Below, piece after piece: positions 39,748 to 63,666 of a DNA stretch of 64,000 nt; within the stretch, counting starts at the first letter, position 1; every line of letters starts with the position of its first letter. Source of the DNA: Bathymodiolus thermophilus thioautotrophic gill symbiont (GTDB lineage: Bacteria > Pseudomonadota > Gammaproteobacteria > PS1 > Pseudothioglobaceae); assembly GCF_003711265.1 (NCBI RefSeq), contig NZ_CP024634.1, positions 1,860,001-1,924,000 on the forward strand, in the 5' to 3' direction. The position numbers and the translations under genes were made by a program. Under the pieces are notes generated by a model. That model was given only the letters and a program-made list of their open reading frames with translations, was not told the origin of the DNA and did no database searches.

Positions 39748-40176
39748 GTGGTGTGATATTAATTTCAATAAAAAAATTTATCCTTAGATGTCAAGTATTC
39801 AAAAAATAAAAAGGATAATTTGATACCTATTAACGATATTTTGATTGAACACTTTTCAACACTCAGGGGAAAATCAAACCATCCAAAGTAATCAAAACAA
39901 GTTTTTAATATCACAACATTTTTAAACAGTTACAAAGCAGAACAAATAAACGAAGATCAAATCTCAAGACTATTCACAAAATGGTCGAAAAAAAATTGGC
40001 ACACTTGTCTCTCCCCACAGATTTAGACACACAACAGCGACAAAAATTACCAATAGCAAATGCCATTTAAAATCACTGGTCATTCTGACATTAAAACAAC
40101 TTTAGGTTATGTTGAAACGAATATTGACGATTTGAGAAAGATTCAATCAGTCATTAATAACGCAAGAAATAGATAA
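39748..40176 (+). pseudogene. decayed tyrosine recombinase, C-terminal half
   Basis: The sequence aligns with the catalytic half of the recombinase at 61293-62186, from GTGGTGTGATATTAATTTCA to the stop codon AGATAA. It has an in-frame TAA in the CCAAAGTAATCAAAAC stretch, an extra A in the run before TTGGCACACTTG, and a 12-bp deletion before GGTCATTCTGACATT. The HRFRH and GYVET motifs are still readable. As at 61.3 kb, CRISPR repeats follow on its 3' side. Confidence 0.85.
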
Positions 40177-40392
40177 AAAAACCACTTACCGATTTTTCGA
40201 TAAGATCACATAAGTGCTTACTTGTTGTAAAAAACTAAAAAATATATTCTTGAATTTTATTACAGACCTTACTATATTTATTAAGCAAATCATCTAGGTA
40301 AAAAGTTTAAAGAGCCAAAATTTCTAACTTCAGTGGCAATCAAAATTAAAAAAATTCTGTTTAGTTTATTAAATCTTGCTTATCTCATAAGC

Positions 40393-40496
40393 ACTACTAA
40401 GCGCTGTATTTGAATAGGCGGGTCTCATATATATGATTTGTGCAAAGAATTTGGATTGTGGGTTTCAACTGCCGTATTCGAATAGGTGGGTCTCAC
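40393..40496. CRISPR. two-repeat CRISPR remnant
   Basis: Repeat B (40462-40496) differs from the consensus of the 62.5-kb array at one position (AATAGGTGGG instead of AATAGGCGGG). Repeat A (40393-40427) keeps TGTATTTGAATAGGCGGGTC but has an eroded 5' part. They enclose one 34-bp spacer. No leader or cas gene accompanies them. The preceding ~55 bp at 40283-40337 match sequence flanking the main array. Confidence 0.8.
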
Positions 40497-41397
40497 ATAT
40501 CTCTGGCACGATAATTATTGCGAGTGCAATGATGTTTTTTGTAGGGGTGTTTACCATGTTTCGTAACACCTATTCTTGTCAAGACTTGACTAAATAAGGA
40601 GTGACAAAGGCAAGCAATAGAAGGCAAAAGTTTTGATGTTGGTTTTCTCTATGGGATAGGTTCATACGACTCTACCCGAAAACATTAATTTTAACTTCTA
40701 GTTGGCAAATAATCCTTAATTCTTTGCTCATTTTCTATTGTAGATTGTTCACGCCCTCTTGATTGGCTGGATTATCTTACCCCCTTCTTTGCCTATGTTT
40801 TCCATTATTTATCGTTAAAAATTATGAACCTTATTTGTTCTGGTTAAAAACTCATGGGCTGCGCCTAATGACGCATAAATCTCATTGATTTTTCCCAAGT
40901 GGCATTAATTGTGTAACTTTCGGTTGAACTTGTAGAGGCGTCATGTGCTGAGTTAGAATAAACTTCACCGCCAATTTTAGTAAATCACCAAAACCAGTTT
41001 TTACACCAGTTTGATTAGTCCACCTACCCTATTTCCCAAAAGTTATATCTTTGGGAAATATTGCCCACAATACGGTCAATAAATAAATTCAATTCTACTG
41101 ATAAAACTTTAGAATTAAAGTATCTTATTGGGTATTTTTAGCAATGACCGACATAGATTCTCGCCAATTGGGGGTGGTGCGTTTATGGGTGTCAATGTCA
41201 AATTCACTATTTTTCTACTCATCTACAACTACCCTTCAGATGAAAAAGCAACCACATGCTGGCAACATATTCCTCCCAAAAGATAATACTTGTTTATCTT
41301 CATCACACTCTACATCTTGGGGAAATATTAAACACAATACGCCGTTCTTTTAATAAATCTTATTATGATGAAAGTGGCAAAAGTCGGATTAAAAAAA
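40497..41397. other. gene-free stretch, probably degraded sequence
   Basis: I find no gene here. Two imperfectly repeated pieces (CGTATTGTGTTTAATATTTC and CGTATTGTGGGCAATATTTC on the minus strand) suggest a decayed duplication. A hairpin-like AGGTGTTACGAAAC with GTTTACC lies near 40551-40580. Confidence 0.4.
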
Positions 41398-43751: not shown

Positions 43752-43798
43752 TGCGTTTTCCTTATTTAAATTAGATTTACTTTATTAAGTTTAGATTT

Positions 43799-43912
43799 AA
43801 CTGAAATGATTTAACTGAAATAACTGAAATGATTTAACTGAAATAACTGAAATAACTGAAATAACTGAAATAACTGAAATAACTGAAATAACTGAAATAA
43901 CTGAAATGATTT
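43799..43912. repeat. AACTGAAAT minisatellite in the promoter region of the discoidin/DUF1566 gene
   Basis: Eleven copies of the 9-bp unit AACTGAAAT are present. The last eight are perfectly tandem (43836-43907), and the first three are separated by GATTT inserts. The array lies 48 bp or more upstream of the ATG at 43751, where unit gain or loss would change promoter spacing without touching the coding frame. Confidence 0.9.
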
Positions 43913-44140
43913 AAACACAGGGAAACGATATCACGCTATTAAATTTTTGTCAAGTGTTTTTAAATTTAATAAGTTATAAAGTTTTTTGCATTCTATTTTC
44001 AACAAAATACTCAGAATTATTACAATTTTTAATACACCCAACAGCAACGAAGCAAAAAAACAGCTGGATTTGTGCATTAACAAATATTAAAAAAAACACA
44101 CTAAAGTTCGTTATGGCAATACTTATAAGGGGTTGTTAGC

Positions 44141-46686: not shown

Positions 46687-46795
46687 CTTTTATTTATCCA
46701 CTAGGTTAGTTTCGATTTTTTCAACCTCATCTATGAAAAACTGATAAGCATTTATTTGCTAAAGCCAAGAGTGCGCTGTTGTAATTCTTGAATTT

Positions 46796-47188
46796 CTACC
46801 GTGCTTTTTCAATGTTTCCGTTGCTTAGTCCAAAACTTTTGAGGCAACTCAACACTTCGTTTGCCTTAACCTGTGTTTGTAATTGGAGTTGTTTAGCGCT
46901 TTCCAATATTTTGTAGATACATCCGCCAGCATTAGATTTTTTATTTTTTGGTTGATTGAGTGTTTGGGTAATGACGCTGTTCATTGTTTTTTTGTTTAGA
47001 TTGTTCAAACAGGTGTTAATTTGCCTCTTATTCACACCCCACTCAGTTAACTGCTGGCGAATGTTTAACTTGTTTATTTCGATAGCCTTTATATTTTTAA
47101 TATTTTGAGTGTTGTTTTTACTGTTGTTGCGAGTAAGTGCACCAACTGTCCTTTCTTGTTTTTCTAAGATTAGTGCGTTATCTTGCAT
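46796..47188 (-). CDS. small protein resembling the C-terminus of plasmid or phage replication initiators
   Basis: This is a 130-aa protein with a good Shine-Dalgarno (AAAGGAG, 6 nt before ATG). The part LNIRQQLTEWGVNKRQINTC then SNAGGCIYKILESAKQL recalls the C-terminal segment of replication initiators, but the winged-helix DNA-binding core is absent, so it is either truncated or a different protein. Upstream lie six iteron-like repeats (47291-47460), which supports a replication or partition link. This is tentative. Confidence 0.5.
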   Translation of the reverse strand: MQDNALILEKQERTVGALTRNNSKNNTQNIKNIKAIEINKLNIRQQLTEWGVNKRQINTCLNNLNKKTMNSVITQTLNQPKNKKSNAGGCIYKILESAKQLQLQTQVKANEVLSCLKSFGLSNGNIEKAR

Positions 47189-47460: not shown

Positions 47461-47650
47461 TGAGGAAAACTTTGCTTTAGTAACAACGATTTCAATAGAC
47501 GAAAAGAGACCTGCAAGGTTATTGCAGTGTTCTTTAAATATTGAGTTTTCGCTTGTATCTATCATAAAACCCTTAAATTAATAAAAAATTTGTATGAACA
47601 AAGCAGAAATATAAACTACAATTAAAAAAATTTAACTATATTTATGAGTT

Positions 47651-47704
47651 TGGCTCCTCGAGCTGGGCTCGAACCAGCGACAAATGGATTAACAGTCCAT
47701 TCGC
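47651..47704 (-). tRNA. 3' half of tRNA-Asn(GTT), attachment-site scar
   Basis: On the minus strand the sequence runs GCGAATGGACTGTTAATCCA, then TTTGTCGCTGGTTCGAGCCC, then AGCTCGAGGAGCCA. It has the anticodon stem-loop with GTT, the T arm with TTCGAGC, the 3' acceptor strand, discriminator G and CCA. The D arm and 5' acceptor strand are missing, replaced by AT-rich DNA on the side of the HTH and recombinase genes. It is not a functional tRNA; it is the displaced 3' end left by integration of an element extending to higher coordinates. Confidence 0.85.
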
Positions 47705-47749
47705 TTATAAAATTATACGATGCTAATTTAACTATGGATTATACTCACA

Positions 47750-47986: not shown

Positions 47987-48027
47987 CTTTAGTTTATCTC
48001 AATCTATTTTATAAATGGAGTATGGCA

Positions 48028-48924
48028 GTGGAGCTAAAAAAATTACTTGAACTGTATCAACAAGAAAAACCGCAATTATCTTCTAGGACAATTCAAAAAT
48101 ATGAGTCTGTTATCACGATGTTTATCAAGGATTCAGGAATTGATAATATCTTTGTCACACGCAACGAATGCATTAAATGGCGCAATAAAATATTAAACAG
48201 ATCAAGTGCTGGAAATTGCAATAATTATCATCGACACATGAGGTCTTTATTTAATTTCGCAGTTGCTGCTAATTATTTAGATGAGAATGTTTTTCAATCG
48301 ATTGATATTTTAAAAACAAGCAATGTGAAATGTAAAACAATCAGCGAAGCAACATTTGAAAAATTGTTATTGACCATAAAACATGATAAGTATTATTCAT
48401 GCCAATCATGGTTTTATTTAGCAATGATAGATGTTTTTAGATTTACTGCTATACGCCGAAGGCAATTAATTGGCATTAAGTGGCGTGACATTAATTTCAA
48501 TGAAAAAACTTTATACCTAGATGCTAAATATTCAAAAAATAAAAATGATAATTTGGTGCCTATTAACGATATTTTGATTGAACACTTTTCAACACTTATG
48601 GAAAAATCAAAAAATCCAAAACAATCAGAACAAGTTTTTAACATTACAAAATTTTTAAATAGTTACAAGGCAGAACAAATGAACGAAGATCATGTCTCAA
48701 GGTTATTCACAAAATGGTCAAAAAAAATTGGCGTACTTGTATCTCCCCACAGATTTAGACACACAACGGCAACAAAGATTGCCAATAGTGGGTGTAATTT
48801 GAAATCACTGCAGCAATTACTTGGTCATTCTGACATTAAAACAACTTTAGGTTATGTTGAAACGAATATTGATGATTTAAGGAGAATTCAGTTGGTCATT
48901 AATAGTGTAAAGACTATTTATTAA
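48028..48924 (+). CDS. tyrosine recombinase/integrase of the tRNA-Asn island
   Basis: This is a ~298-aa phage-integrase-family protein. The preferred start is GTG 48028, because TGGAG lies 7 nt upstream and the frame then aligns with the N-terminus of the 61293 homologue; ATG 48022 is the alternative. An N-terminal SAM-like core-binding domain precedes the catalytic domain. Catalytic residues (numbered from ATG 48022) are R145 (AIRRRQL), K172 or K174 (SKNKND), H243 and R246 (PHRFRH), H269 (LLGHS) and Y278 (GYVE). The complete set predicts activity. It lies 320 bp from the tRNA-Asn scar. From about residue 41 on it is nearly identical to the 61293 recombinase, but residues 1-40 diverge. Confidence 0.9.
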   Translation: MELKKLLELYQQEKPQLSSRTIQKYESVITMFIKDSGIDNIFVTRNECIKWRNKILNRSSAGNCNNYHRHMRSLFNFAVAANYLDENVFQSIDILKTSNVKCKTISEATFEKLLLTIKHDKYYSCQSWFYLAMIDVFRFTAIRRRQLIGIKWRDINFNEKTLYLDAKYSKNKNDNLVPINDILIEHFSTLMEKSKNPKQSEQVFNITKFLNSYKAEQMNEDHVSRLFTKWSKKIGVLVSPHRFRHTTATKIANSGCNLKSLQQLLGHSDIKTTLGYVETNIDDLRRIQLVINSVKTIY

Positions 48925-49115: not shown

Positions 49116-49436
49116 TTGTTATTTATTTATAAAGATTTAATAATAGATTTAGTAGAGAATAGCAATGACACCAAAAAGATTCAAGAGATGGTTAAGAACT
49201 GGGAGGTTCCTAGTTATAACGATTTAAAAGATGGAAGAGGAAAGCATCATAACTTTGAGGTTTATATAAATGGTGAGGGATATATTAAGAATATCTTTGT
49301 TGTTTCCGAAAGAAATTGCATGTATATATTGGGTTATCTGTTGATGGATGCATTGAATATAGATAAAAAATCTATATATTCCAATAATAAGACTACTGAT
49401 TATTGGAATACACTTACCGAATTTCTAAAGACTTAG
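49116..49436 (+). CDS. hypothetical protein overlapping the hsdR 3' end
   Basis: This is a 106-aa frame starting with TTG and no clear ribosome-binding site. The sequence is acidic and mixed (KKIQEMVKNWEVPSYNDL, CMYILGYLLMDALNID) with no recognised domain. It converges with hsdR and overlaps its last 23 bp, ending in TEFLKT. It could be a real cargo gene of the island or an N-terminally truncated one. Confidence 0.4.
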   Translation: MLFIYKDLIIDLVENSNDTKKIQEMVKNWEVPSYNDLKDGRGKHHNFEVYINGEGYIKNIFVVSERNCMYILGYLLMDALNIDKKSIYSNNKTTDYWNTLTEFLKT

Positions 49437-52368
49437 TGTAATCTTCATAAAGCCTATCTTTGATAAATTTATTTCGTTTATTTTCACTCAGTTTCTTATA
49501 AAAATCTAAGTTGTCTTCGACCAAACTTGTTACTAATGATTGGAAAGTTCTATCAAATTTATCACGTTTATTAGAATCGGAATTATCACCAGTCATGACC
49601 ATCCTTAATTCTTCGTTTTCATGTACTTGACATTTGATTTTTTCAAATTTAACTTTATCTTCATCAGAGAACTCACCATCAAATGAATCATTAAGTATTT
49701 CAATAATATGAGATAAGAAATCTGTTGGTTCTTCATTAATTCCATCAGATCCATCAGAACCAATCCCTTCAATTACGGTATCACCGTCATCCAATTCAAT
49801 AGTTGATGTAAATTTCTTTTCAATCTTAAAGTATTCAAGATCAATAGATGACAGAATGTCTGATAATTTACCACCTTCTCTTCTTGGTAGTTTTTTACTC
49901 AGCCCTCGAACAAATATAAACAGTTTCTCAAGGTCAATATCCTTAAAGGTGATGACTTGTGAAATGTAACCGTAAAGTCTTATAAAACTGTAAATTTGAC
50001 CTCTAAATTCCTCTTGCTCATCTTCATCTAATGACTTCCAATTAACAACTACTGAATCAAGTATCCCTTGTAACTCTTCGGTAGATATTTCATCTTTGTA
50101 GAATGTATCAACATACCTTTCAATGTCGTCGTCATTGAACAAGTGATATTCATCAATATCATCTTTAATTGAGTACAGTCTATTCGGATCAATTTCTTCT
50201 TCTAGAATTGTCCCTTCATAGAAGGGTTGGAATGACTCTTGTACATCTTGTGGGTCATTAACAAAGTCTAAAACAAAAGTATCTGTTTTACCTCTCATTG
50301 TTCTATTCAACCTTGACAGTGTTTGAACACACTGCAATCCCCCAAACTTCTTATCAACGTACATGGTGTGCAACATTGGTTCATCAAACCCTGTTTGGAA
50401 TTTATTATTAACAATAAGGATTCTAAATTGTGGCTCTTTTAAACTCTCTTCTGTTTGTGTTTCGGGTACACCGTTCATTGAAGATTCAGTATAGTCTTGG
50501 TGAGTGCCTTGATCATATACTGTTCCAGAGAACCCCACTAATGAACGATATGGTAAATCCATTTCCTCCATCTGTTTATCAAATTCTAATTTGTACTTAA
50601 CACAATGAAGGCGTGATTTAGTTACTAACATTCCTCGACTCTTACCTTCGAGTTTATTAGACGCATGATTAACAAAATGATCTAATATAATTCTGACTTT
50701 TTCAGTAATTGTATGTGGATGTAAATCTACCCAATTCACCAACATTGATTTAACTTTACTCTCGGGTAACTCTTTATCTTCTTTAACCTTCTTATTGAGT
50801 TTGAAGTATCGTTTGTATGTTGTGTAATTCTGTAATACATCCAAAGTAAAACCTTCTGAGACACTTTGTTTCATTGAATATAGATCGAATGGTTTAAAAC
50901 CTTCCTCTGACGGTGTTCCGAATAACTCTAAAGTCTTATTCTTAGGTGTTCCTGAAAAACCAAAGTATGAAATATGAGGTTGTTTACCCCTTGAGTTAAT
51001 CTCATCCAATATCATCTTATCGACTTGAGTTAGGTCCTCTTCACCTTCACCTTCTTGGTAATTATCTAGGTTAGATTTAGATAATGATTTTCTAAGATGT
51101 TTAGATGTTTCACCACTTTGTGATGAGTGAACCTCGTCAATAATTACACCAAATTTTCTATCACCTAATTTTGAGATAGTCTCAGAGATAACAGGGAACT
51201 TTTGGATCGTGGTAATAATAATTGATTTACCTGACTCTAAGAATTCTTTTAATTGTTGTGATGTTCCATCAACTGGGTTTACAACACCTTTGGTTTGCTC
51301 GAGTTGAAGTATAGTATTTTTAATTTGTTTATCCAATACTCGTCTATCAGTTACAACAATGATTGTGTCAAATATACGGTTGGCATCTGTTGGGTTTTGA
51401 TATAAAAATGACAACATGTGGGATAACCAACCGATAGAGAGTGATTTACCAGAACCAGTAGTGTGTTGAATTAAGTAATTAACCCCAGTTCCTTTGTCCA
51501 ATATATCTTGTCTAATTTTCTTAATGACATTTAATTGATGGAATCTTGGAAAGATTAAAGTATCAGATTTCTTTTCAACTAATCTTTGTTGTTTTGGATC
51601 ATAAACCTTCTCAATATCTTGTCTAATATGAACAAAGTTTTCGATCAAATCTAATACCGAATCCTTTTGTAAAATATCATCCCAAAGATAATGAGACATG
51701 TGTCCTTTAGGATTGACAGGGTTATCAATACCCTTATTAAAGGGTAAGAATCTTGTCTTTGATCCACTTAAACGAGTTGACATGAATACTTTCTCATTAC
51801 CAACAGAGAAATACACCATATTTCTTTTAAATTTAAATAACGGTTCTTTAGGGTCTCGATCAAACTTCCATTGTTTTATACCGTGGGTATGGTTTTGACC
51901 GGTTAATGAGTTCTTTAATTCCAACATCATCACTGGAATACCATTAATGAAAATACCCATGTCAATAGAGTTTTCATTCTTCTTAGAGTATTTGAGTTGA
52001 CGAAGTTCAATAAATCGATTCTTTTTATATAAGTCTTGGTGTTCTTGATTAAGTCCAGATTTGGGTTTGAAATACACTAATTTAAAGGTATTCCCTCTAT
52101 CCTTTACACCTTTACGTAGAACTTCAATAACTCCTTTAGATTCAATTTGTTCTGAGATTCTTTTGGTGAGTTTGTTATTAGTATCATCACCGTACTGTTC
52201 GGTGAGTTTTTGGTATTTCTTTGGTTGGGTTTCTTGGATAAACTCAATGAGTTGTGAAGGTATTAAACATAATGATTTATCATAGAGTTTTGGCTCAACT
52301 TTTATGTAACCACTGTTCAGTAGTTGAACTTCAATATGTTCTTCAAAGTTTAACTCTGTGTAATTCAT
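49414..52368 (-). CDS. hsdR: type I restriction enzyme subunit R
   Basis: This is a 984-aa protein. The N-terminal nuclease domain has the PD-(D/E)XK-like IFINGIPVMMLELKN near 150. The helicase/translocase core shows HTTGSGKSLSIGWL (Walker A, ~300), VIIDEVHSSQSG (DEAH-type box) and FGFSGTPKN, with QTLSRLNRTMRGK as a C-terminal helicase motif. The complex cleaves DNA after ATP-driven translocation when it meets unmethylated sites. It is the last gene of hsdM-hsdS-hsdR; its start overlaps the hsdS stop by 4 bp. Length is normal and the gene appears intact. Confidence 0.95.
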   Translation of the reverse strand: MNYTELNFEEHIEVQLLNSGYIKVEPKLYDKSLCLIPSQLIEFIQETQPKKYQKLTEQYGDDTNNKLTKRISEQIESKGVIEVLRKGVKDRGNTFKLVYFKPKSGLNQEHQDLYKKNRFIELRQLKYSKKNENSIDMGIFINGIPVMMLELKNSLTGQNHTHGIKQWKFDRDPKEPLFKFKRNMVYFSVGNEKVFMSTRLSGSKTRFLPFNKGIDNPVNPKGHMSHYLWDDILQKDSVLDLIENFVHIRQDIEKVYDPKQQRLVEKKSDTLIFPRFHQLNVIKKIRQDILDKGTGVNYLIQHTTGSGKSLSIGWLSHMLSFLYQNPTDANRIFDTIIVVTDRRVLDKQIKNTILQLEQTKGVVNPVDGTSQQLKEFLESGKSIIITTIQKFPVISETISKLGDRKFGVIIDEVHSSQSGETSKHLRKSLSKSNLDNYQEGEGEEDLTQVDKMILDEINSRGKQPHISYFGFSGTPKNKTLELFGTPSEEGFKPFDLYSMKQSVSEGFTLDVLQNYTTYKRYFKLNKKVKEDKELPESKVKSMLVNWVDLHPHTITEKVRIILDHFVNHASNKLEGKSRGMLVTKSRLHCVKYKLEFDKQMEEMDLPYRSLVGFSGTVYDQGTHQDYTESSMNGVPETQTEESLKEPQFRILIVNNKFQTGFDEPMLHTMYVDKKFGGLQCVQTLSRLNRTMRGKTDTFVLDFVNDPQDVQESFQPFYEGTILEEEIDPNRLYSIKDDIDEYHLFNDDDIERYVDTFYKDEISTEELQGILDSVVVNWKSLDEDEQEEFRGQIYSFIRLYGYISQVITFKDIDLEKLFIFVRGLSKKLPRREGGKLSDILSSIDLEYFKIEKKFTSTIELDDGDTVIEGIGSDGSDGINEEPTDFLSHIIEILNDSFDGEFSDEDKVKFEKIKCQVHENEELRMVMTGDNSDSNKRDKFDRTFQSLVTSLVEDNLDFYKKLSENKRNKFIKDRLYEDYTKSLEIR

Positions 52369-53675
52369 ACTAACACCTCATCTCTTACATCAACCTTACC
52401 AGTAACAACATCTGAGATTAATGATTGACGATATTCTTTTAACAAAATAATACGTTTAGATTCAATATCAACGAGTTTATCAATTTTTGAGGTCTCGAAG
52501 TCGAGATAATCAACTATTTGTTGTTGTTCTTGATGTGGTGGAAAGGGGAATATTAAGTTTCTAATCTCTCCTAATGATATAAATGGTTGTCCACCACCTT
52601 TCTGACTTATGTCTATCTGACTCTTTAGAATTTCACTATCTATTAAATATATTAAATATTTCGGAACTATATCATTAGATTTAGAGGTTTTAAATAAACA
52701 AACATTTTTAATTGAAAATTTTTTATTGTTTGTTACCAATACATTTTTACCTATATTTCCTCCAATCATTGACATAATAATGTCTTCTTTTTCAACATCA
52801 CTCCTACGGTTTATTTCTAAATAATCTACTTCAGATATATGTTTACACTGGTTGAAATCTATATCATTCTTTACAAATGATTTAGATGTTACTAATGGAA
52901 AAGTTTGTTGTCCTTTATCAACAAACTCTGGTGTGTCGTGAGTTCCATCTTTTACTTCACAATAGTAAGATATTTTAGTTCTCACCCACCCACTAGGTAT
53001 ATCCCCAATCCACTCAACACCACTATCTTTCATTTCAACATGGGGGTTTAACCCTTTAGTAACAGTTGTATTAATGAGTGATGTTCGTTGTTCTTTTAAT
53101 AACTCGATTTTTTGTTGAGTTTTCTCAAGGAGTGTATCAATCTTTGAGGTTTTGTTATCGAGATAATCTGAGATCTGTTGTTGTTCTTGGAGTGATGGAA
53201 CTCTTACACTTAGGTTTAGAAATGTTTCCATTCTGACTACTTTCCTAAGTCCAGTGTAATAAGGTTTTAAACCCTTTACATCGTCGATAGAAAGATAGTT
53301 ATAGTAAATAAATTTTGAGTCAGTTAATGTATTACATTTAACGACCTTATATGACCCTGTTATCATTCCACTAAAATTTGATATACCTATGGTTCTCGGT
53401 GTTTCATCTATGTCATATAAACAAAAAATCAAATCATCCTTATCGACAGTTTGATACGTGTCAAAACTTTCAGGAAACTTACCCCTACCACTTTCAACAT
53501 CTCTTAATACTACACCTCTTTTAGTCAATGACAATAACTGATATTTGTCAGATTCTTCTCCTACAACATTTTTTGTAACATCGAACAAATATTTGTTTCT
53601 TACAACACCCCACTCACTCGGAATCTCACCAATCCACTCAACACCACTATCTTTATATGCTGGATAAGTATTCAT
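52365..53675 (-). CDS. hsdS: type I restriction-modification specificity subunit S
   Basis: This is a 436-aa protein with two target-recognition domains. Each half begins with a similar motif (YKDSGVEWIGEIPSEWG near 5; MKDSGVEWIGDIPSGW near 215) and ends in a helical spacer (LQEQQQISDYLDNKTSKID near 160; HQEQQQIVDYLDFETSKID near 385). These helices set the distance between the two half-sites. The TRD bodies differ, so the site is bipartite and asymmetric; it cannot be read from sequence alone. It lies 2 bp after hsdM. Confidence 0.95.
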   Translation of the reverse strand: MNTYPAYKDSGVEWIGEIPSEWGVVRNKYLFDVTKNVVGEESDKYQLLSLTKRGVVLRDVESGRGKFPESFDTYQTVDKDDLIFCLYDIDETPRTIGISNFSGMITGSYKVVKCNTLTDSKFIYYNYLSIDDVKGLKPYYTGLRKVVRMETFLNLSVRVPSLQEQQQISDYLDNKTSKIDTLLEKTQQKIELLKEQRTSLINTTVTKGLNPHVEMKDSGVEWIGDIPSGWVRTKISYYCEVKDGTHDTPEFVDKGQQTFPLVTSKSFVKNDIDFNQCKHISEVDYLEINRRSDVEKEDIIMSMIGGNIGKNVLVTNNKKFSIKNVCLFKTSKSNDIVPKYLIYLIDSEILKSQIDISQKGGGQPFISLGEIRNLIFPFPPHQEQQQIVDYLDFETSKIDKLVDIESKRIILLKEYRQSLISDVVTGKVDVRDEVLV

Positions 53676-53677
53676 TA

Positions 53678-55384
53678 CTAAACAACCTCATTTAATAGAT
53701 TCTCTGACTCTTCTTCAAGTTTGAGTAAATCTTGGGTGATTTCACTCATTGAACGAAGTGGTTTATATTTATAAAAATATTTAGTAAAGTTGATTTCGTA
53801 ACCAACCTTGTTTTTAGATTCATCCATCCACGAATCTGGTAGGTGTGGCTTTACTTCTTTTTCAAAGTAATCTTCAATGTCACCAGTTAATGGAATTCTT
53901 TCATAATCTCTTTTCTTGGTATCTGGTTTAACTTTTCCTTGTTTGGTGGTAACAACAACCCCATTCTTTTCTAATGGCTGTTCAATTGTTATTTTTGTAT
54001 ATCCAAAATATTCGTTATTATGAATCTGACTAACTTCTGACTCTATAAAGTTATTGTATGTTTCAACAATTTGTTTACGACCTTCGACAGAAACCTCTTT
54101 ACTTTTCTCACCAAGGTTTTTTCTCATTGATGTGTAAAAATTAGATCCATTAATTAATTGAACCTTCCCTTGTCTTTCACTAGATTTTTTATTAGTTACA
54201 ATCCACAAATATGTCGATATACTGGTATTAAAGAACAACCTATCGGGTAACGAAACGATACATTCCAACATATCGTTTTCAATAATCCATTTACGTATCT
54301 CACTCTCACCCGAACCACTATCACCTGCAAACATTGGTGAACCATTTAAAACAATACCAACACGTGAACCTTTTGGATCCATCTTAGAAATCATGTGTTG
54401 TAAGAATAACAATTGACCATCAGATGATCTTGGTGTTCCTACTGAGAATCTACCGTTAGGATTGTCACTTTCATTTTCAATAAAACTCTTTTCTGACTTC
54501 CAACTTACACCATAAGGTGGGTTAGTTAACATATAGTCAAATTTATCCCCTTGAAATCTATCCTCAGATAACGATGAACCTTGACGAATTTCCTCTGGAT
54601 TTCCACCAGTAATCATCATGTCAGATTTACAAATTGAATAGGTTTGTGGGTTTAGTTCTTGACCTAATAGTCTTATATCAACTTTATCATTAATATTTTC
54701 ATGAACCCATTCTTGACTAGTGGTCAACATACCACCAGTTCCACAACAAGGGTCAAAAATACTTCTTACTTTATCATTGCCTTGTAAATTGTCAGATTCT
54801 TGTGAAAATACCATTGATACCAATAATTTAACAACATCTCTTGGTGTGTAATGTTCACCAGAGGTCTCATTACTCATCTCAGAGAATTTTCTTAACAACT
54901 CCTCAAAGATTTGACCCATTTGATGATTCGAAACAACATCGGGGTGTAGTTCAATTTCACTGAATTTCTCAATGAATTGGAATAAACGATTATTTTTATT
55001 TAACTTCTCAATAGGTTTTTCTAATTGGAAGTTTTCAACAATTTCAACAACATTCTCACTGTAACCACTTAGGTAGTTATCGAAATTCATCATTACATTA
55101 GATGGGTCTTGTCTGAGACGATTTAAGTCATATTGAGAATGATTGAAGAATGTAGTATTAACCCTTGTAAGAATAATAGGCGTCGGATCATCAACTTGTG
55201 ATTTGTATTCGTTGTAAAGGCCAATAACATTGTCTTTGTGTGGCTCTAAAACACAATCAAGACGCCTTAAAACAGTGAAGGGTAGGATGATATCACCGTA
55301 TTCATGAGGTTTAAACAATCCTCTTAATACGTCGTCACAAACGTTCCAAATAAAAGATGAGATTTCACTATGGTTAACAGACAT
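53678..55384 (-). CDS. hsdM: type I restriction-modification methyltransferase subunit M
   Basis: This is a 568-aa N6-adenine methyltransferase. The helical N-terminal domain (~1-160) contains LPFTVLRRLDCVLEPHK. The AdoMet site is FDPCCGTGGMLT (~213-224) and the catalytic motif is NPPYG (~288-292), matching the HsdM family. It is first in the operon, with the start ATG at 55384. Together with hsdS it protects host DNA. It is cargo of the putative tRNA-Asn island. Confidence 0.95.
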   Translation of the reverse strand: MSVNHSEISSFIWNVCDDVLRGLFKPHEYGDIILPFTVLRRLDCVLEPHKDNVIGLYNEYKSQVDDPTPIILTRVNTTFFNHSQYDLNRLRQDPSNVMMNFDNYLSGYSENVVEIVENFQLEKPIEKLNKNNRLFQFIEKFSEIELHPDVVSNHQMGQIFEELLRKFSEMSNETSGEHYTPRDVVKLLVSMVFSQESDNLQGNDKVRSIFDPCCGTGGMLTTSQEWVHENINDKVDIRLLGQELNPQTYSICKSDMMITGGNPEEIRQGSSLSEDRFQGDKFDYMLTNPPYGVSWKSEKSFIENESDNPNGRFSVGTPRSSDGQLLFLQHMISKMDPKGSRVGIVLNGSPMFAGDSGSGESEIRKWIIENDMLECIVSLPDRLFFNTSISTYLWIVTNKKSSERQGKVQLINGSNFYTSMRKNLGEKSKEVSVEGRKQIVETYNNFIESEVSQIHNNEYFGYTKITIEQPLEKNGVVVTTKQGKVKPDTKKRDYERIPLTGDIEDYFEKEVKPHLPDSWMDESKNKVGYEINFTKYFYKYKPLRSMSEITQDLLKLEEESENLLNEVV

Positions 55385-57510: not shown

Positions 57511-57840
57511 ATGTCTGTAGACCAAACTTGATTGGCATGATTGATACCAAGGCCTCGAAGCTTGTAACTGTACTTCTTATGCGTTTTGATTGATATGGTC
57601 GTATCAACTTTGTTTAACTGCCAATACTGCCTTTAAGCAGGGGTCTTCGATAGCGTGCAACGGTGTTTAAGCTTACTTTGAATTGTTGATGTACTTTTTT
57701 TTCGCCGTAAATAGGTATGCGTTCAAACACTTTGATAATGTGGTTTTTTGATGGTTTGCTTAGTATCGTTTGTTTTTGACTTGTAATATAAGCCACTTCT
57801 GTTAATGCCCAATAATTGACATTGATAATTAACGGATAAA
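57511..57840 (-). pseudogene. IS3 transposase orfB, N-terminal part
   Basis: Minus-strand pieces CQLLGINRSGLYYKSKT, HIIKVFERIPIYGEKKVHQQ and KLRGLGINHANQVWSTDIT are the HTH_21-type N-terminus of IS3 OrfB, in more than one frame. The fragment is bounded by the 1303-bp IS at its 5' side and the 1507-bp IS at its 3' side. Confidence 0.8.
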
Positions 57841-59143
57841 AAGACCCCTGCATAGCACCCTAAAACCAACCATCAAAACCCAAAACCCTCAATTTTTGAC
57901 TTTTCAAAGTCAAAAAATATATAAAACCCAGCTTTCATTAAAAAAATCATCAATACCAACTATAAATCGCTCATTTTCTACTCTTTTTTGTACTGTTTCC
58001 ACAAAAAAAACACAATAATCCCTAGGCTGTATTTAATCCCTTGTTAATATAAACATTCGCCGCTCTAACTAGATTATAAGCAATAGCTTTAAGATTAACT
58101 TCGCTGGCAACTTTCTCTAAACCAATATAACGACTTCTTGCCAAACCATAAGTGCGTTTGAGTGTACCAAAGGTGCGTTCAACCACAAACCTTCTTTTGC
58201 TGATTGCTTTATTGCGTAATTTATTCCAATGACTCATTTGCTTGCCTTTGGGTTTTTTGCGCATAATACCATCTCTTAACTTTTGTGCTTTAAGTGCCTC
58301 ACTATTAGCTTGAGAGGCTGCTCCTTTGTCGTATAAAACTCTTACGCCTTTTTGATTGCCTGCCTGTTTAACATTTTCTTCAAAATGAGTCATTTCACTA
58401 TCATTAGCAGGGTGCGTAGTGGCTTTGTTAATTAATCCATTGGCATCAGTTGTTACTACTGATGAATATCCATAAGTGTATTTTCCCGCCTTAAATGTCC
58501 ATCTTGCATCTTTATCATCTGAATATTGAATTGGGTTACTATCAATCTCATAAACCTCACCAGTTTTGTGTGTTGTAATAATCTTCTTAGTGCGTCTAGC
58601 ACTTTGAATTAAGGTTGCATCCATGGCAACATGTTTGCCATTAGAGAGTTTGAGTTGATTGTTCTCAAGCATAAGATTGATGCTACTCAAAAGTCTATCA
58701 AATAGATTTTGTTTGATTAGTTTGGTTCTAAATCTGCCAATGGTTGTGGCATCAGGTTTGTTGCCACTTAGGCTAAAGTTGCAAAAGTTAATAAAGACTA
58801 AATCTCTACTAAGACTATCAGCCAACTTCTCATCAGAGAGATTGTGCCATGTGCCTATTAATAGCGCTTTAAACAGACTAACAGCAGAATAGTCAACTTT
58901 AATATGAGACAGATCTTTGGTTATAACTTCCCAATCGATAACTTTGTTAATGATGTCTAGTTGGGAGTTTGGTATGTTGATAAAACTATCAGCAAAGGTT
59001 TGTTCTTGAGTGGTTTTAACTCGCATTTTTTTGTAAGTATCTGATAATTATAGTATTTTATCATAAATGCTAATGTTTGCATAAGGTTTTGAGGGTTAAT
59101 TTGTGATTTTTTGTTGGGTTTTTTAGTTTAATACAGGGGTCTT
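57841..59143 (-). mobile_element. 1303-bp IS, copy 1 (IS5-like)
   Basis: Left end AAGACCCCTGCATAGCACCC; right end, read inward, AAGACCCCTGTATTAAAC. A 5-bp target duplication ATAAA occurs at 57836-57840 and 59144-59148. It inserted at the orfA/orfB junction of the IS3 element. It is nearly identical to copy 2 at 59917-61219, and both are in the same orientation. Confidence 0.9.
58022..59026 (-). CDS. IS5-family transposase, copy 1
   Basis: This is a 334-aa DDE transposase. It has an N-terminal DUF772-like region (LFKALLIGTWHNLSDEKLAD, DATTIGRFRTKL). The catalytic Asp is in HVAMDATLIQSARR, the second in RVLYDKGAASQAN, and the Glu in FVVERTFGTLKRTYGLARSR. It is full-length and differs from copy 2 by only about two residues. 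Confidence 0.93.
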   Translation of the reverse strand: MRVKTTQEQTFADSFINIPNSQLDIINKVIDWEVITKDLSHIKVDYSAVSLFKALLIGTWHNLSDEKLADSLSRDLVFINFCNFSLSGNKPDATTIGRFRTKLIKQNLFDRLLSSINLMLENNQLKLSNGKHVAMDATLIQSARRTKKIITTHKTGEVYEIDSNPIQYSDDKDARWTFKAGKYTYGYSSVVTTDANGLINKATTHPANDSEMTHFEENVKQAGNQKGVRVLYDKGAASQANSEALKAQKLRDGIMRKKPKGKQMSHWNKLRNKAISKRRFVVERTFGTLKRTYGLARSRYIGLEKVASEVNLKAIAYNLVRAANVYINKGLNTA

Positions 59144-59148
59144 ATAAA

Positions 59149-59495
59149 GAGGATGAAGATGGCTTGAAATCAACTAACTGCTTGAGATTAGATGAGTCCA
59201 AGCTTTTTAGCTTTTTTGCCAACCACTTCTCTACTGTTACTTTGCCTACTATGGTAGTTAGACGCTCATTCTGTTGCTATGCTTTGACAAGTTCTTCTTT
59301 GTATTCTTTAACAGCTTTAGAGGGCTCTATGGCAATTTCTGCGTTAGCAAGAAAGGTTTTCTTTTAATTTTGTAGGTTCTGAGGAAGGATGTTATGCTTG
59401 CTAGCAATCTGCACTAAGGTTTGTTCGTTTTGCAATAGTTCAAGCACGAGTTTAGTCTTGAATGCAGGGGTATATTTAGTTTGTTTTTTACTCAT
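59149..59495 (-). pseudogene. IS3 orfA remnant
   Basis: The minus strand starts MSKKQTKYTPAFKTKLVLEL and continues QTLVQIASKHNILPQNLQN, the HTH_Tnp_1 domain of IS3 OrfA. A TAA replaces an expected Trp codon after NLQN, and a second stop follows EELVKA. Coiled-coil-like sequence (QQNERLTTIVGKVTVEK) continues to the IS junction. Confidence 0.8.
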
Positions 59496-59574
59496 TTTTT
59501 TGTTTAGTTTAACGAATTTGAAATAAGGAAAATTAAATTGTTGTTTGAAATTGTTGGGGCTTTATAGATCGTCC

Positions 59575-59850
59575 AATTCTAAACGCCCCACAATTTGTTT
59601 AGGACTCCAATACTCTTTTAACTTTTCAACAATGTAGCCTCTAGACATTATCTACAACCTAATGACTTTGTTTTTCTCTTGATGTCTTTTGCAAGCAAGT
59701 CCATTGACTTGATTGTATCGGAAACCTTTTTTGCCAGTATTGCAAGACAACTCTCTAGAAATAGTTGACTTATTCCTACCCAATAAATTTTGATTGCACC
59801 CCTGTTTGTTCAGTAGATAAATATGGTATCTTTGTTCTTAGGTCAATTGG
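59575..59850 (-). pseudogene. IS30-family transposase, N-terminal fragment
   Basis: Minus-strand frames give YLSTEQTGVQSKFIG, KSTISRELSCNTGKKGFRYN and YIVEKLKEYWSPKQIVGRLE. STISREL and WSPKQI-GRL are hallmarks of IS30 transposase N-termini. Stops and frameshifts interrupt it, and it is cut at the IS3 5' end. The complementary C-terminal type of fragment lies at 39090-39300. Confidence 0.75.
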
Positions 59851-59916
59851 GTATATTTTTTCATATTTCACTCCTTTTTCTTGAGTGGTCAATATACTCT
59901 TTTGTTCGACCAATGA

Positions 59917-61219
59917 AAGACCCCTGCATAGCACCCTAAAACCAACCATCAAAACCCAAAACCCTCAATTTTTGACTTTTCAAAGTCAAAAAACATATAA
60001 AACCCAGCTTTCATTAAAAAAATCATCAATATCAACTATAAATCGCTCATTTTTTACTCTTTTTTGTACTGTTTCCACAAAAAAGACACAATAATCCCTA
60101 GGTTGTATTTAATCCCTTGTTAATATAAACATTCGCCGCTCTAACTAGATTATAAGCAATAGCTTTAAGATTAACTTCGCTGGCAACTTTCTCTAAACCA
60201 ATATAACGACTTCTTGCCAAACCATAAGTGCGTTTGAGCGTACCAAAGGTGCGTTCAACCACAAACCTTCTTTTGCTGATTGCTTTATTGCGTAATTTAT
60301 TCCAATGACTCATTTGCTTGCCTTTGGGTTTTTTGCGCATAATACCATCTCTTAACTTTTGTGCTTTAAGTGCTTCACTATTAGCTTGAGAGGCTGCTCC
60401 TTTGTCGTATAAAACTCTTACGCCTTTTTGATTGCCTGCCTGTTTAACATTTTCTTCAAAATGAGTCATTTCACTATCATTAGCAGGGTGCGTAGTGGCT
60501 TTGTTAATTAATCCATTGGCATCAGTTGTTACTACTGATGAATATCCATAAGTGTATTTTCCCGCCTTAAATGTCCATCTTGCATCTTTATCATCTGAAT
60601 ATTGAATTGGGTTACTATCAATCTCATAAACCTCACCAGTTTTGTGTGTTGTAATAATCTTCTTAGTGCGTCTAGCACTTTGAATTAAGGTTGCATCCAT
60701 GGCAACATGTTTGCCATTAGAGAGTTTGAGTTGATTATTCTCAAGCATAAGATTGATGCTACTCAAAAGTCTATCAAATAGATTTTGTTTGATTAGTTTG
60801 GTTCTAAATCTGCCAATGGTTGTAGCATCAGGTTTGTTGCCACTTAGGCTAAAGTTGCAAAAGTTAATAAAGACTAAATCTCTACTAAGACTATCAGCCA
60901 ACTTCTCATCAGAGAGATTGTGCCATGTGCCTATTAATAGCGCTTTAAACAGACTAACAGCAGAATAGTCAACTTTAATATGAGACAGATCTTTGGCTAT
61001 AACTTCCCAATCGATAACTTTGTTAATGATGTCTAGTTGGGAGTTTGGTATGTTGATAAAACTATCAGCAAAGGTTTGTTCTTGAGTGGTTTTAACTCGC
61101 ATTTTTTTGTAAGTGTCTGATAATTATAGTATTTTATCATAAATGCTAATGTTTGCATAAGGTTTTGAGGGTTGATTTGTGATTTTTTGTTGGGTTTTTT
61201 AGTTTAATGCAGGGGTCTT
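59917..61219 (-). mobile_element. 1303-bp IS, copy 2 (IS5-like)
   Basis: The ends are AAGACCCCTGCAT at 59917 and its exact complement ending at 61219. A 5-bp target duplication AATGA occurs at 59912-59916 and 61220-61224. Same length and orientation as copy 1, with 773 bp between them, so the pair could act as a compound unit or recombine. Confidence 0.92.
60098..61102 (-). CDS. IS5-family transposase, copy 2
   Basis: This is a 334-aa protein nearly identical to the product at 58022-59026 (WEVIAKD instead of WEVITKD; the last residue is Thr instead of Ala). The DDE residues are intact. The reading frame ends shortly before the IS left end, and an AT-rich segment rich in CAAAACCC-type runs separates it from the terminal repeat. 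Confidence 0.93.
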   Translation of the reverse strand: MRVKTTQEQTFADSFINIPNSQLDIINKVIDWEVIAKDLSHIKVDYSAVSLFKALLIGTWHNLSDEKLADSLSRDLVFINFCNFSLSGNKPDATTIGRFRTKLIKQNLFDRLLSSINLMLENNQLKLSNGKHVAMDATLIQSARRTKKIITTHKTGEVYEIDSNPIQYSDDKDARWTFKAGKYTYGYSSVVTTDANGLINKATTHPANDSEMTHFEENVKQAGNQKGVRVLYDKGAASQANSEALKAQKLRDGIMRKKPKGKQMSHWNKLRNKAISKRRFVVERTFGTLKRTYGLARSRYIGLEKVASEVNLKAIAYNLVRAANVYINKGLNTT

Positions 61220-61220
61220 A

Positions 61221-61237: not shown

Positions 61238-61292
61238 GATGTGAATTCAAGGTTTATTCTATTCCTTTTATTTGAAAAAAAGGACTTCAAGA

Positions 61293-62186
61293 ATGAAATT
61301 AATTAAATTACTGGAACTATACCAAGAAGAAAAGCCACATTTATCACCAAGAACAATCGATAAATACAAATCAATTATCAGCATGTTTGCAAAGGACTCA
61401 AATATTGATAATATCTTTGTCACACGCAACGAATGCATTAAATGGCGCAATAAAATATTAAACAGATCAAGTGCTGGAAATTGCAATAATTACCATCGAC
61501 ACATGAGGTCTTTATTTAATTTCGCAGTTGCCGCTAATTATTTAGATGAGAATGTTTTTCAATCGATTGATATTTTAAAAACAAGCAATGTGAAATGTAA
61601 AACAATCAGCGAAGTAACATTTGAAAAATTGTTATTGACAATAAAACATGATAAATATTATTCATGTCACTCATGGTTTTATTTAGCAATGATAGATGTT
61701 TTTAGATTTACCGCTATACGCCGAAGGCAATTAATTGGCATTAAGTGGCGTGACATTAATTTCAATGAAAAAACTTTATACCTAGATGCTAAGTATTCAA
61801 AAAATAAAAATGATAATTTGGTACCTATTAACGATATTTTGATTGAACACTTTTCAACACTTATGGAAAAATCAAAAAATCCAAAACAATCAGAACAAGT
61901 TTTTAACATTACAAAATTTTTAAATAGTTACAAGGCAGAACAAATGAACGAAGACCATGTCTCAAGGTTATTCACAAAATGGTCAAAAAAAATTGGCGTA
62001 CTTGTATCTCCCCACAGATTTAGACACACAACGGCAACAAAGATTGCCAATAGTGGGTGTAATTTGAAATCACTGCAGCAATTACTTGGTCATTCTGACA
62101 TTAAAACAACTTTAGGTTATGTTGAAACGAATATTGATGATTTAAGGAGAATTCAGTTAGTCATTAGCAATGTGGAAAATAGATAA
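61293..62186 (+). CDS. tyrosine recombinase adjacent to the CRISPR array
   Basis: This is a 297-aa protein starting at ATG 61293 with AAGGA 8 nt upstream; an in-frame TTG at 61272 is less likely. The N-terminal 40 residues (KLIKLLELYQEEKPHLSPRT) differ from the 48028 recombinase, whereas the rest is almost identical at DNA and protein level. It keeps the full catalytic set: Arg in AIRRRQL, Lys in SKNKND, His and Arg in PHRFRH, His in LLGHS and Tyr in GYVE. No tRNA scar is seen beside it. Its 3' side leads into a CRISPR array, an arrangement also seen in decayed form at 39.7-40.5 kb. Confidence 0.9.
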   Translation: MKLIKLLELYQEEKPHLSPRTIDKYKSIISMFAKDSNIDNIFVTRNECIKWRNKILNRSSAGNCNNYHRHMRSLFNFAVAANYLDENVFQSIDILKTSNVKCKTISEVTFEKLLLTIKHDKYYSCHSWFYLAMIDVFRFTAIRRRQLIGIKWRDINFNEKTLYLDAKYSKNKNDNLVPINDILIEHFSTLMEKSKNPKQSEQVFNITKFLNSYKAEQMNEDHVSRLFTKWSKKIGVLVSPHRFRHTTATKIANSGCNLKSLQQLLGHSDIKTTLGYVETNIDDLRRIQLVISNVENR

Positions 62187-62360
62187 AAAACTATTTATAC
62201 CATTTATAAATTCTCAATCAATAAAGCGCATTTTTATACTGGTGATTTTACTTGTTAACCCAACCTAGTCCTAGTAGAAAATACAATTTAAATCACTAGG
62301 CAACTATTTTGTATATTTTTCCATAGGTTTCGCCACACTTAAATATCGCTTTTTTAGTTA

Positions 62361-62410
62361 AACAAATTACTCAAGTAAAAAAGTTTAAAATTTTAAAATT
62401 TATTACCTCA
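62361..62410. repeat. flanking repeat, left of the CRISPR array
   Basis: AACAAATTACTCAAGTAAAA followed by AAGTTTAAAATTTTAAAATT is related to 63611-63666 on the other side of the array and to 40283-40337 before the CRISPR remnant. The three copies share CAAAT, AGTAAAAAAG and TTTAAA blocks in the same order. The rest of 62187-62489 is AT-rich with no gene. Confidence 0.5.
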
Positions 62411-62489: not shown

Positions 62490-62945
62490 ACTTCAACTGC
62501 CATATTCGAATAGGTGAGCCTCACAAGCCCTTCAAGCGCTATCGTTCGAAGTAGAAAATGTTTCAACTGCCGTATTCGAATAGGCGGGTCTCACAGCATC
62601 CTTACAATACTTGGCTAAGAATGTTGATGTTTCAACTGCCGTATTCAAATAGGCGGGTCTCACATATTTTCCGCCAAAGTGGTGAGGAAGTAGTAAGTGT
62701 GTTTCAACTGCCGTATTCGAATAGGCGGGTCTCACATCCAGAGTGTTCTGTACCTGATGAGACTGGTGCTGTTTCAACTGCCGTATTCGAATAGGCGGGT
62801 CTCACTCTACTGCTCTGGAGAAGAATCTGGAGGCGGTTATGTTTCAACTGCCGTATTCGAATAGGCGGGTCTCACAGGATGGAAGTCGCTGAGTTGCGTC
62901 CGCTTGATGAGTTTCAACTGCCGTATTCGGATAGGCGGGTCTCAC
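62490..62945. CRISPR. CRISPR array, 7 repeats and 6 spacers
   Basis: The 35-bp repeat reads GTTTCAACTGCCGTATTCGA then ATAGGCGGGTCTCAC. Repeats start at 62490, 62560, 62629, 62701, 62771, 62841 and 62911; spacers are 35, 34, 37, 35, 35 and 35 bp and unrelated to each other. The core TATTCGAATA is a perfect palindrome flanked by GCC(G) and GGC, giving a hairpin. The first repeat is the most degenerate (ACTTCAACTGCCATATTC.. AGGTGAGCC), marking 62490 as the old end and placing acquisition at 62945. Read on the minus strand the repeat ends GTTGAAAC, like type I/III handles; read on the plus strand it starts GTTTCAACTGC, like type II-B repeats. No cas genes lie within the window. Confidence 0.97.
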
Positions 62946-63270
62946 AGTACCCTAAAAAACACCTTATAAATCAACGAAATACAAGGCGAATTCGGCAACC
63001 TCGGTGATTTTTTAGAAAATCTAGTGAAACTGTGTATATTATACCTTTTTAATTTGGTTAAAGTGTTGTGGTTAAAGCATTCGGCAAGTGAAAAACTTAA
63101 GTGATTGATTTTTAATGAAATAACTTAACTTGCTATTTTTTTATCGTGCTTGCCGAATTGGGTAACAATTACAGTAGGGTTGTTTTGAGCAATACAGTGT
63201 TATCTACTAAGGCAATAATACCTTAATCGTTTATTAAATAGGTTGAAAAACTATCTCTTTATAAGGGTAA
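62946..63270. promoter_or_regulatory. probable CRISPR leader region with inverted repeats
   Basis: This AT-rich stretch follows the least-degenerate end of the array, as expected for a leader. It contains ATTCGGCAAG at about 63080 and its complement CTTGCCGAAT at about 63149, with a third partial copy (AATTCGGCAA) near 62988. A small hairpin TAAGG..CCTTA lies near 63210-63227. No gene is seen. Confidence 0.4.
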
Positions 63271-63335
63271 AGACAGTTACTTGCCTTGTGACCAAGTTTC
63301 GTAAACTCAACTCAATCATAAGGCGAGTAACTCAC
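63240..63335. ncRNA. candidate tracrRNA region containing an anti-repeat-like segment
   Basis: Segment 63296-63335 resembles the CRISPR repeat in the same order: GTTTC, then AACT after a 3-nt insertion, then ATAAGGCGAGTAACTCAC against ATAGGCGGGTCTCAC. About 23 of 35 repeat positions match, clustered at the two ends as in crRNA:tracrRNA duplexes. It overlaps a 13-bp inverted repeat with one mismatch (AGTTACTTGCCTT at 63275-63287, AAGGCGAGTAACT at 63320-63332), so the right-hand match may instead be part of a local hairpin. For a type II system the RNA would run on the minus strand, for a type V system on the plus strand. This is tentative. Confidence 0.35.
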
Positions 63336-63610
63336 TTTGATTTTTAAAGCCGAAGTCTGTGACACGGTATCCAATAGATTAAAAGAGCGTGTAAATATGG
63401 ATAAACTATTTACTGCCCTTCGGCGAGGTAACGCAAGCGTTTGTTTGTTGTAAAAGAATAAGTCAAAGCGTGTATCTCTAAAATTTGCCATCAATATCAA
63501 ATTGCACATGGTCGCATAAAAACCTGATCAATGGAACGAATTTTAAATTGTTTTAAACTACTCTCAGGTTCACAGATTAAACCAATCAAAAAAAGCGCAC
63601 CAGTTCATTA

Positions 63611-63666
63611 GGCAAATATCACTCAAGTAAAAAAGCTTAAAGAGCCAAACTTTTTTGCTTCAGTGA
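63611..63666. repeat. flanking repeat, right of the CRISPR array
   Basis: GGCAAATATCACTCAAGTAA then AAAAGCTTAAAGAGCCAAAC and GCTTCAGTGAT matches 40283-40337 (AAAGAGCCAAAA, CTTCAGTGGC) and, less well, 62361-62410, all in the same orientation. Together with the left copy it brackets the array and the anti-repeat-like segment. The remaining bases of 63336-63870 show no supported gene. Confidence 0.5.

Follow-up and report, generated by a model that had tools for sequence, protein, structure and literature searches.

The recombinase/CRISPR pairs found in the window, by which we mean the whole stretch of 64,000 nucleotides analysed here, very probably represent two copies of an integrative conjugative element (ICE) in tandem at a tRNA-Asn gene in the symbiont of a deep-sea mussel, one of them decayed, with the CRISPR arrays carried as cas-less cargo. 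The pair of recombinase and repeats would thus be seen twice because the ICE is present in two tandem copies. The sequence-only reading had described two repeats behind a decayed tyrosine recombinase near 40 kb, and seven of the same family behind an intact recombinase at 61.3-62.9 kb. Both descriptions hold, the former for the remnant at 39748-40195 with repeats at 40403-40427 and 40462-40496, and the latter for the integrase int61 with array C; at both places the recombinase indeed lies upstream of the repeats and on the same strand.

Integrase copies and the tRNA-Asn attachment site

Three closely related copies of the recombinase were found, one decayed and two intact, and are listed here with the attachment (att) site.

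39748..40195, plus strand: decayed integrase, C-terminal half, assigned to the older ICE; 83-84% DNA identity to int61 and int48, several stops
47640..47701, minus strand: att site, an exact 62-bp copy of the tRNA-Asn 3' end plus flank; left end of the current ICE
48022..48924, plus strand: int48, intact ICE integrase adjoining the att site, without an array; Phage_integrase E=7.7e-29, catalytic residues kept
61272..62186, plus strand: int61, second intact integrase, upstream of array C; Pfam Phage_integrase E=1.3e-28

The recombinase is a Phage_integrase/Xer-like protein that has R, K, HxxR, H and Y as catalytic residues, as expected; judged from its sequence, it is an ordinary integration enzyme of the ICE type. 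All of the recombinase copies and all of the repeat copies lie within one 26-kb stretch, a clustering that is explained by a single ICE site carrying tandem copies. The two intact integrases share 95% DNA identity over 862 bp; they are ~98% identical over most of their length and only ~68% identical over the first 120 nt, a pattern suggesting recombination between tandem ICE copies.

Direct repeats identical in 62/62 bases mark the two ends of the current element (genome 1907640-1907701 and 1976373-1976434). ARAGORN placed an intact tRNA-Asn at genome 1976384-1976459, 68.7 kb from the att copy, which itself lies 320 bp upstream of int48; the current ICE therewith spans ~68.7 kb, from window position 47640 (genome 1907640) to the intact tRNA-Asn. 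A search of the region with Rfam yielded only a sub-threshold tRNA fragment (47661-47716), which turned out to be part of the att site.

By its gene content and its ends, the element between the tRNA-Asn copies is classed as an ICE. It encodes an F-type conjugation operon, recognised with Pfam (TraG, TraH, the coupling protein, TraN, TraC, TrbI and TraU), and a predicted relaxase, a 1029-aa protein with 73% identity to a protein scoring as a TrwC relaxase. It holds int61 and arrays C and D, two of the three arrays, and the following features lie between the two integrases.

49414..55384, minus strand: type I restriction-modification genes (R, S and M), ICE cargo; HSDR_N, Methylase_S and HsdM_N/N6_Mtase
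57840..61220, minus strand: two insertion-sequence copies, 99% identical; transposases at 58022-59026 and 60098-61102

Two further copies of the same insertion sequence occur later in the ICE, and the other cargo comprises DNA methylases, ParA, an XRE/ImmA pair, a ThiF/E1-like cluster and a PtuA-like ATPase. The ThiF/E1-like gene, its small neighbours and the XRE/ImmA pair (genome 1939382-1942611) show 84% DNA identity to the corresponding part of an ICE in Ca. Thiodubiliella, and this group is possibly an uncharacterised defence cluster.

We also compared the element with its relatives, the symbiont itself being represented by one strain. Related integrases (67-75% aa identity) are present in Ca. 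Ruthturnera (CP125320.1) and in Ca. Thiodubiliella endoseptemdiera (JACCHT01), and both of them carry stops, which counts against the ICE explanation. In both, a copy of the tRNA-Asn 3' end lies ~330-345 bp upstream of the integrase, and no arrays were detected within 10-20 kb of these related integrases. Since the integrases of the two relatives likewise stand downstream of a tRNA-Asn 3' copy, the constant partner of the recombinase appears to be the tRNA-Asn attachment site, not the array. In Ca. Thiodubiliella a colinear conjugation operon (~55-85% aa identity) ends at the same tRNA-Asn, and in Ca. Ruthturnera the tRNA-Asn copies enclose a residual ~12 kb that includes the integrase and orf401. 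The complete congeneric genomes G002 and G007 have an intact tRNA-Asn and no ICE conjugation genes over ~17 kb beyond it.

The 40-kb locus

At the 40-kb locus, the integrase end and the two repeats run on into further remnants of ICE genes.

40490..40685, plus strand: remnant of the ICE 115-aa ORF, fused directly to the last repeat; tblastn 74% aa
40694..41025, minus strand: remnant of the C-terminal end of traG; tblastn 47-77% aa
45979..46686, minus strand: endA, endonuclease I gene at the right end of the older ICE; 98% aa identity to the copy at genome 1973937-1974644
46693..47188, minus strand: remnant of orf401, an ICE right-end gene; 80-85% aa in pieces

The order is thus integrase end, two repeats, 115-aa ORF and traG end, then genes without an ICE match, and after these the right part, with pieces of orf401 and orf150, endA and the att site. 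At the DNA level, the remnant of the 115-aa ORF is 78% identical to genome 1948092-1948668, and the remnant as a whole matches parts of the ICE that are up to 55 kb apart. We take the 40-kb locus, on this gene order, to be an older, internally deleted ICE of the same family, lying to the left of the current ICE in tandem. A left-end att site of the older remnant was sought across 148 kb and none was found, which counts against the ICE explanation.

The sequence-only reading had further noted that the sequence between recombinase and repeats is partly shared by the two loci. This applies to ~20 bp past the stop codon, which align well, but the rest scores only z=2.0 against shuffles; moreover, one motif in this sequence has many similar copies in the genome and accounts for part of the sharing. 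The short motif AAGTAAAAAAGTTTAAAGAGCC and variants of it occur at 62353-62410, 63604-63665 and 40277-40335 of the window, and at many other genome sites too.

Other repetitive sequence was observed in the neighbourhood. An intergenic short tandem repeat, AACTGAAAT, with a 9-bp unit in ~10 copies, lies at 43781-43914. At 4524-38762 lie several exceptionally long ORFs, reaching 3382 aa, which are made up of ~213-bp repeats in at least 33 copies and have an adhesin-like appearance, and a tandem array of ~1.65-kb units, 92-94% identical, is located to the left of the window (genome 1842001-1850222).

CRISPR arrays and Cas genes

The 35-bp repeat has the consensus GTTTCAACTGCCGTATTCGAATAGGCGGGTCTCAC. 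Its 28-bp core matches the window 8 times, where 100 shuffles give an expectation of 0; with up to 3 mismatches it has 13 matches genome-wide, all inside one 25-kb stretch. In the chromosome of 2,832,685 bp, which is one contig, this orphan repeat is confined to three arrays, A (two repeats), C (seven) and D (six).

40403..40427, plus strand: array A, truncated degenerate repeat; 22-nt match to the consensus, 95%
40462..40496, plus strand: array A, near-perfect repeat; 34/35 bases as in the consensus
62490..62945, no strand assigned: array C, seven 35-bp repeats and six unique spacers; leftmost repeat degenerate
62946..63185, minus strand: putative leader common to arrays C and D, from flank conservation
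genome 1925077-1925459, outside the window: array D, six repeats

With repeats of 35 bp and 11 spacers of 32-37 nt each, all different, these are CRISPR arrays; the spacers of array C are 34-37 nt long and unique, and the one spacer of array A is not found in array C. Array D lies 2.1 kb after array C, just past the window end, and adjoins a DNA methylase, with no recombinase directly adjoining. The right flanks of arrays C and D share 93% identity over 228 bp and this sequence is absent elsewhere in the genome, while the leftmost repeats of both are the degenerate ones; the leader is for these reasons probably on the right side, away from the integrase. The putative leader contains TATAAT on the minus strand and was not flagged in the promoter scan, and RNA folding of the repeat favours the strand opposite to that implied by a right-side leader. 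The ICE also has two copies, 87-88% identical, of a partly palindromic intergenic sequence of ~200 bp, one at window 63261-63458 and the other at genome 1928395-1928604, and a relative of it sits upstream of the methylase in Ca. Thiodubiliella.

The sole Cas1 of the genome is encoded in a II-B Cas9 locus (cas9, a Fic-like gene, cas1, a cas2-like ORF and cas4), whose array of ~50 repeats is unrelated in sequence to the orphan repeat. No RAMP, and no Cas3 over the cut-off, was detected in the genome search; no cas genes were recognised on the ICE, and no type IV effector among the part of its ORFs that was scanned. We considered whether the host II-B Cas9 might use the arrays and rejected this, because the repeats differ and the stretch preceding the II-B array matches its own repeat only. 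A partial match to the orphan repeat was found neither near the II-B locus nor near the orphan-array locus. The Fic/DOC-like gene between cas9 and cas1 (L043:9712-10425) has a counterpart after the last II-B repeat (L043:16063-16260), where the sequence resembles the end of a Fic/DOC-like gene running into the start of cas1, as if the locus had been partly duplicated around its array. For EPR9N, a Bathymodiolus thermophilus thioautotrophic symbiont, one CRISPR array (49 spacers) and nine predicted islands have been reported in the part of the account available to us (PMC9789115). This array fits the II-B locus, and no description of the ICE with its small arrays occurs in that part.

The spacers gave no convincing target in the collections searched. 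Array-wide BLAST against phages and plasmids returned chance-level matches only, the matches in relatives were partial (22-31 nt) and did not extend, and four spacer cores had no match, or unrelated 20-nt matches, in viral contigs. The orphan repeat itself was not found in 192 relatives, nor was its exact 21-base pattern in viral contigs or in a species-level genome collection. In the syntenic ICE of Ca. Thiodubiliella, arrays C and D are absent on either side of the conserved methylase. Since the ICE backbone around this methylase is kept there without either array, the arrays appear to be variable ICE cargo, and on the present searches they are orphans in this genome. The unusual point is that a recognisable matching Cas set is present in neither the element nor the host.

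Competing explanations, parallels and meaning

A dedicated unit in which the recombinase acts on the array as a functional module, for example by moving arrays or spacers, would account for the order of recombinase then repeats, in the same orientation, at two of the three recombinase copies, and for the presence of both families in one 26-kb stretch. However, a genome-wide check of co-occurrence left int48 without an array and array D without a recombinase of its own, and the related integrases have tRNA-Asn copies and no arrays, so that the claim that the two always occur together failed and such a module is highly improbable. What remains of the proposed travelling unit is one mobile unit that is present twice; it is an ICE of ~69 kb and not a recombinase-CRISPR module, and it is only as ICE cargo that the recombinase moves with the arrays. 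The sequence-only reading had also considered a duplication. The 40-kb locus would then be a decayed local copy of the 61-kb locus, with no second ICE. The 83-84% identity of the integrase remnant and the same repeat family after both are in its favour, but the 40-kb remnant runs into the 115-aa ORF and traG end, orf401, endA and att, arranged as they would be in a second ICE, and its spacer is missing from array C, which leaves this explanation improbable. A very old duplication of the whole ICE would differ from the tandem-ICE reading in origin only. As for an integron, with the recombinase as integron integrase and the repeats as attC sites with cassettes, the presence of several partly palindromic repeats behind a tyrosine recombinase gives a superficial likeness. 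The units of 32-37 nt between the repeats are too short for gene cassettes; the score of 43 bits with the integron-integrase model TIGR02249, against a cut-off of 265, rules this reading out, and its probability is close to nil.

A further possibility concerns the arrays and is compatible with the ICE explanation: they may be functional, portable mini-array immunity, used in trans with the Cas proteins of other hosts, and not relics. Most of the repeats are perfect, the spacers are unique, the C/D flank is 93% conserved, and short ICE-borne arrays against rival elements are known (CampyICE1, PMC8743540; ESKAPE ICEs/IMEs, PMC9841420). On the other hand, no matching Cas set was recognised here, the repeat and upstream anti-repeat of the host Cas9 differ, no protospacer was found, and the repeat is absent from the species-level genome collection and the viral contigs. 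We consider portable immunity possible but rather unlikely, relics being the most likely state of the arrays. That the ICE family keeps cas-less arrays in a cargo slot after the integrase, as portable immunity acting in trans with an unknown or rare Cas set of other hosts, and that integrase and array are thus selected to stay together, has little probability.

Tyrosine integrases join the att site of an element to the 3' end of a tRNA gene and keep the tRNA intact, and after excision an ICE is transferred by its relaxase and type IV secretion system. For the tandem ICE copies, the integrase would recombine attP with the tRNA-Asn site, and the ICE may still be capable of transfer. A second ICE would have arrived at the same tRNA-Asn site, and the older one would have been eroded by deletion. 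Two integrases in one ICE are unusual, which counts against the ICE explanation; int48 and int61 may have come together through fusion of two tandem ICEs with loss of the part between, perhaps via the insertion sequences. The arrays would be passive cargo, most likely relics, possibly usable given a matching Cas set.

Among published elements, CampyICE1 of Campylobacter jejuni/coli (PMC8743540) comes closest: its integrase lies at a tRNA end, it encodes a tyrosine recombinase and type IV conjugation genes, and as many as three very short arrays are scattered over it. It has its own cas9 and tracrRNA, whereas the ICE here has no recognised cas gene and the host Cas9 repeat does not match. The ESKAPE ICEs/IMEs (PMC9841420) are likewise elements with integrase, relaxase and CRISPR spacers, in a survey that included orphan arrays, but they belong to other lineages and their spacers matched prophages and other ICEs, while no target was found here. 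ICEHin1056 of Haemophilus influenzae (NC_011409.1) provided the best match to the integrase in the plasmid collection (33% over 89%), but it has a MobH relaxase and an MPF-G conjugation system in place of TrwC and F-type. Arrays also occur as ICE cargo in Acidithiobacillia, as type IV CRISPR loci (cited in PMC11656645), in contrast to the present ICE, among whose scanned ORFs no type IV effector gene was recognised. Virus-borne mini-CRISPR arrays (PMC6858448) are also short, cas-less arrays on a mobile element, but they are carried by archaeal viruses and implicated in virus-virus conflicts, whereas the element here is conjugative and no target was found.

The odd pairing of recombinase and CRISPR repeats is thereby traced, on our reading, to a mobile element that can be defined, an ICE at tRNA-Asn that is present in tandem copies and rich in defence genes. 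Members of its family occur in mussel symbionts, Ca. Ruthturnera has a remnant, and the arrays raise a testable question, namely where the Cas machinery that wrote them is located.
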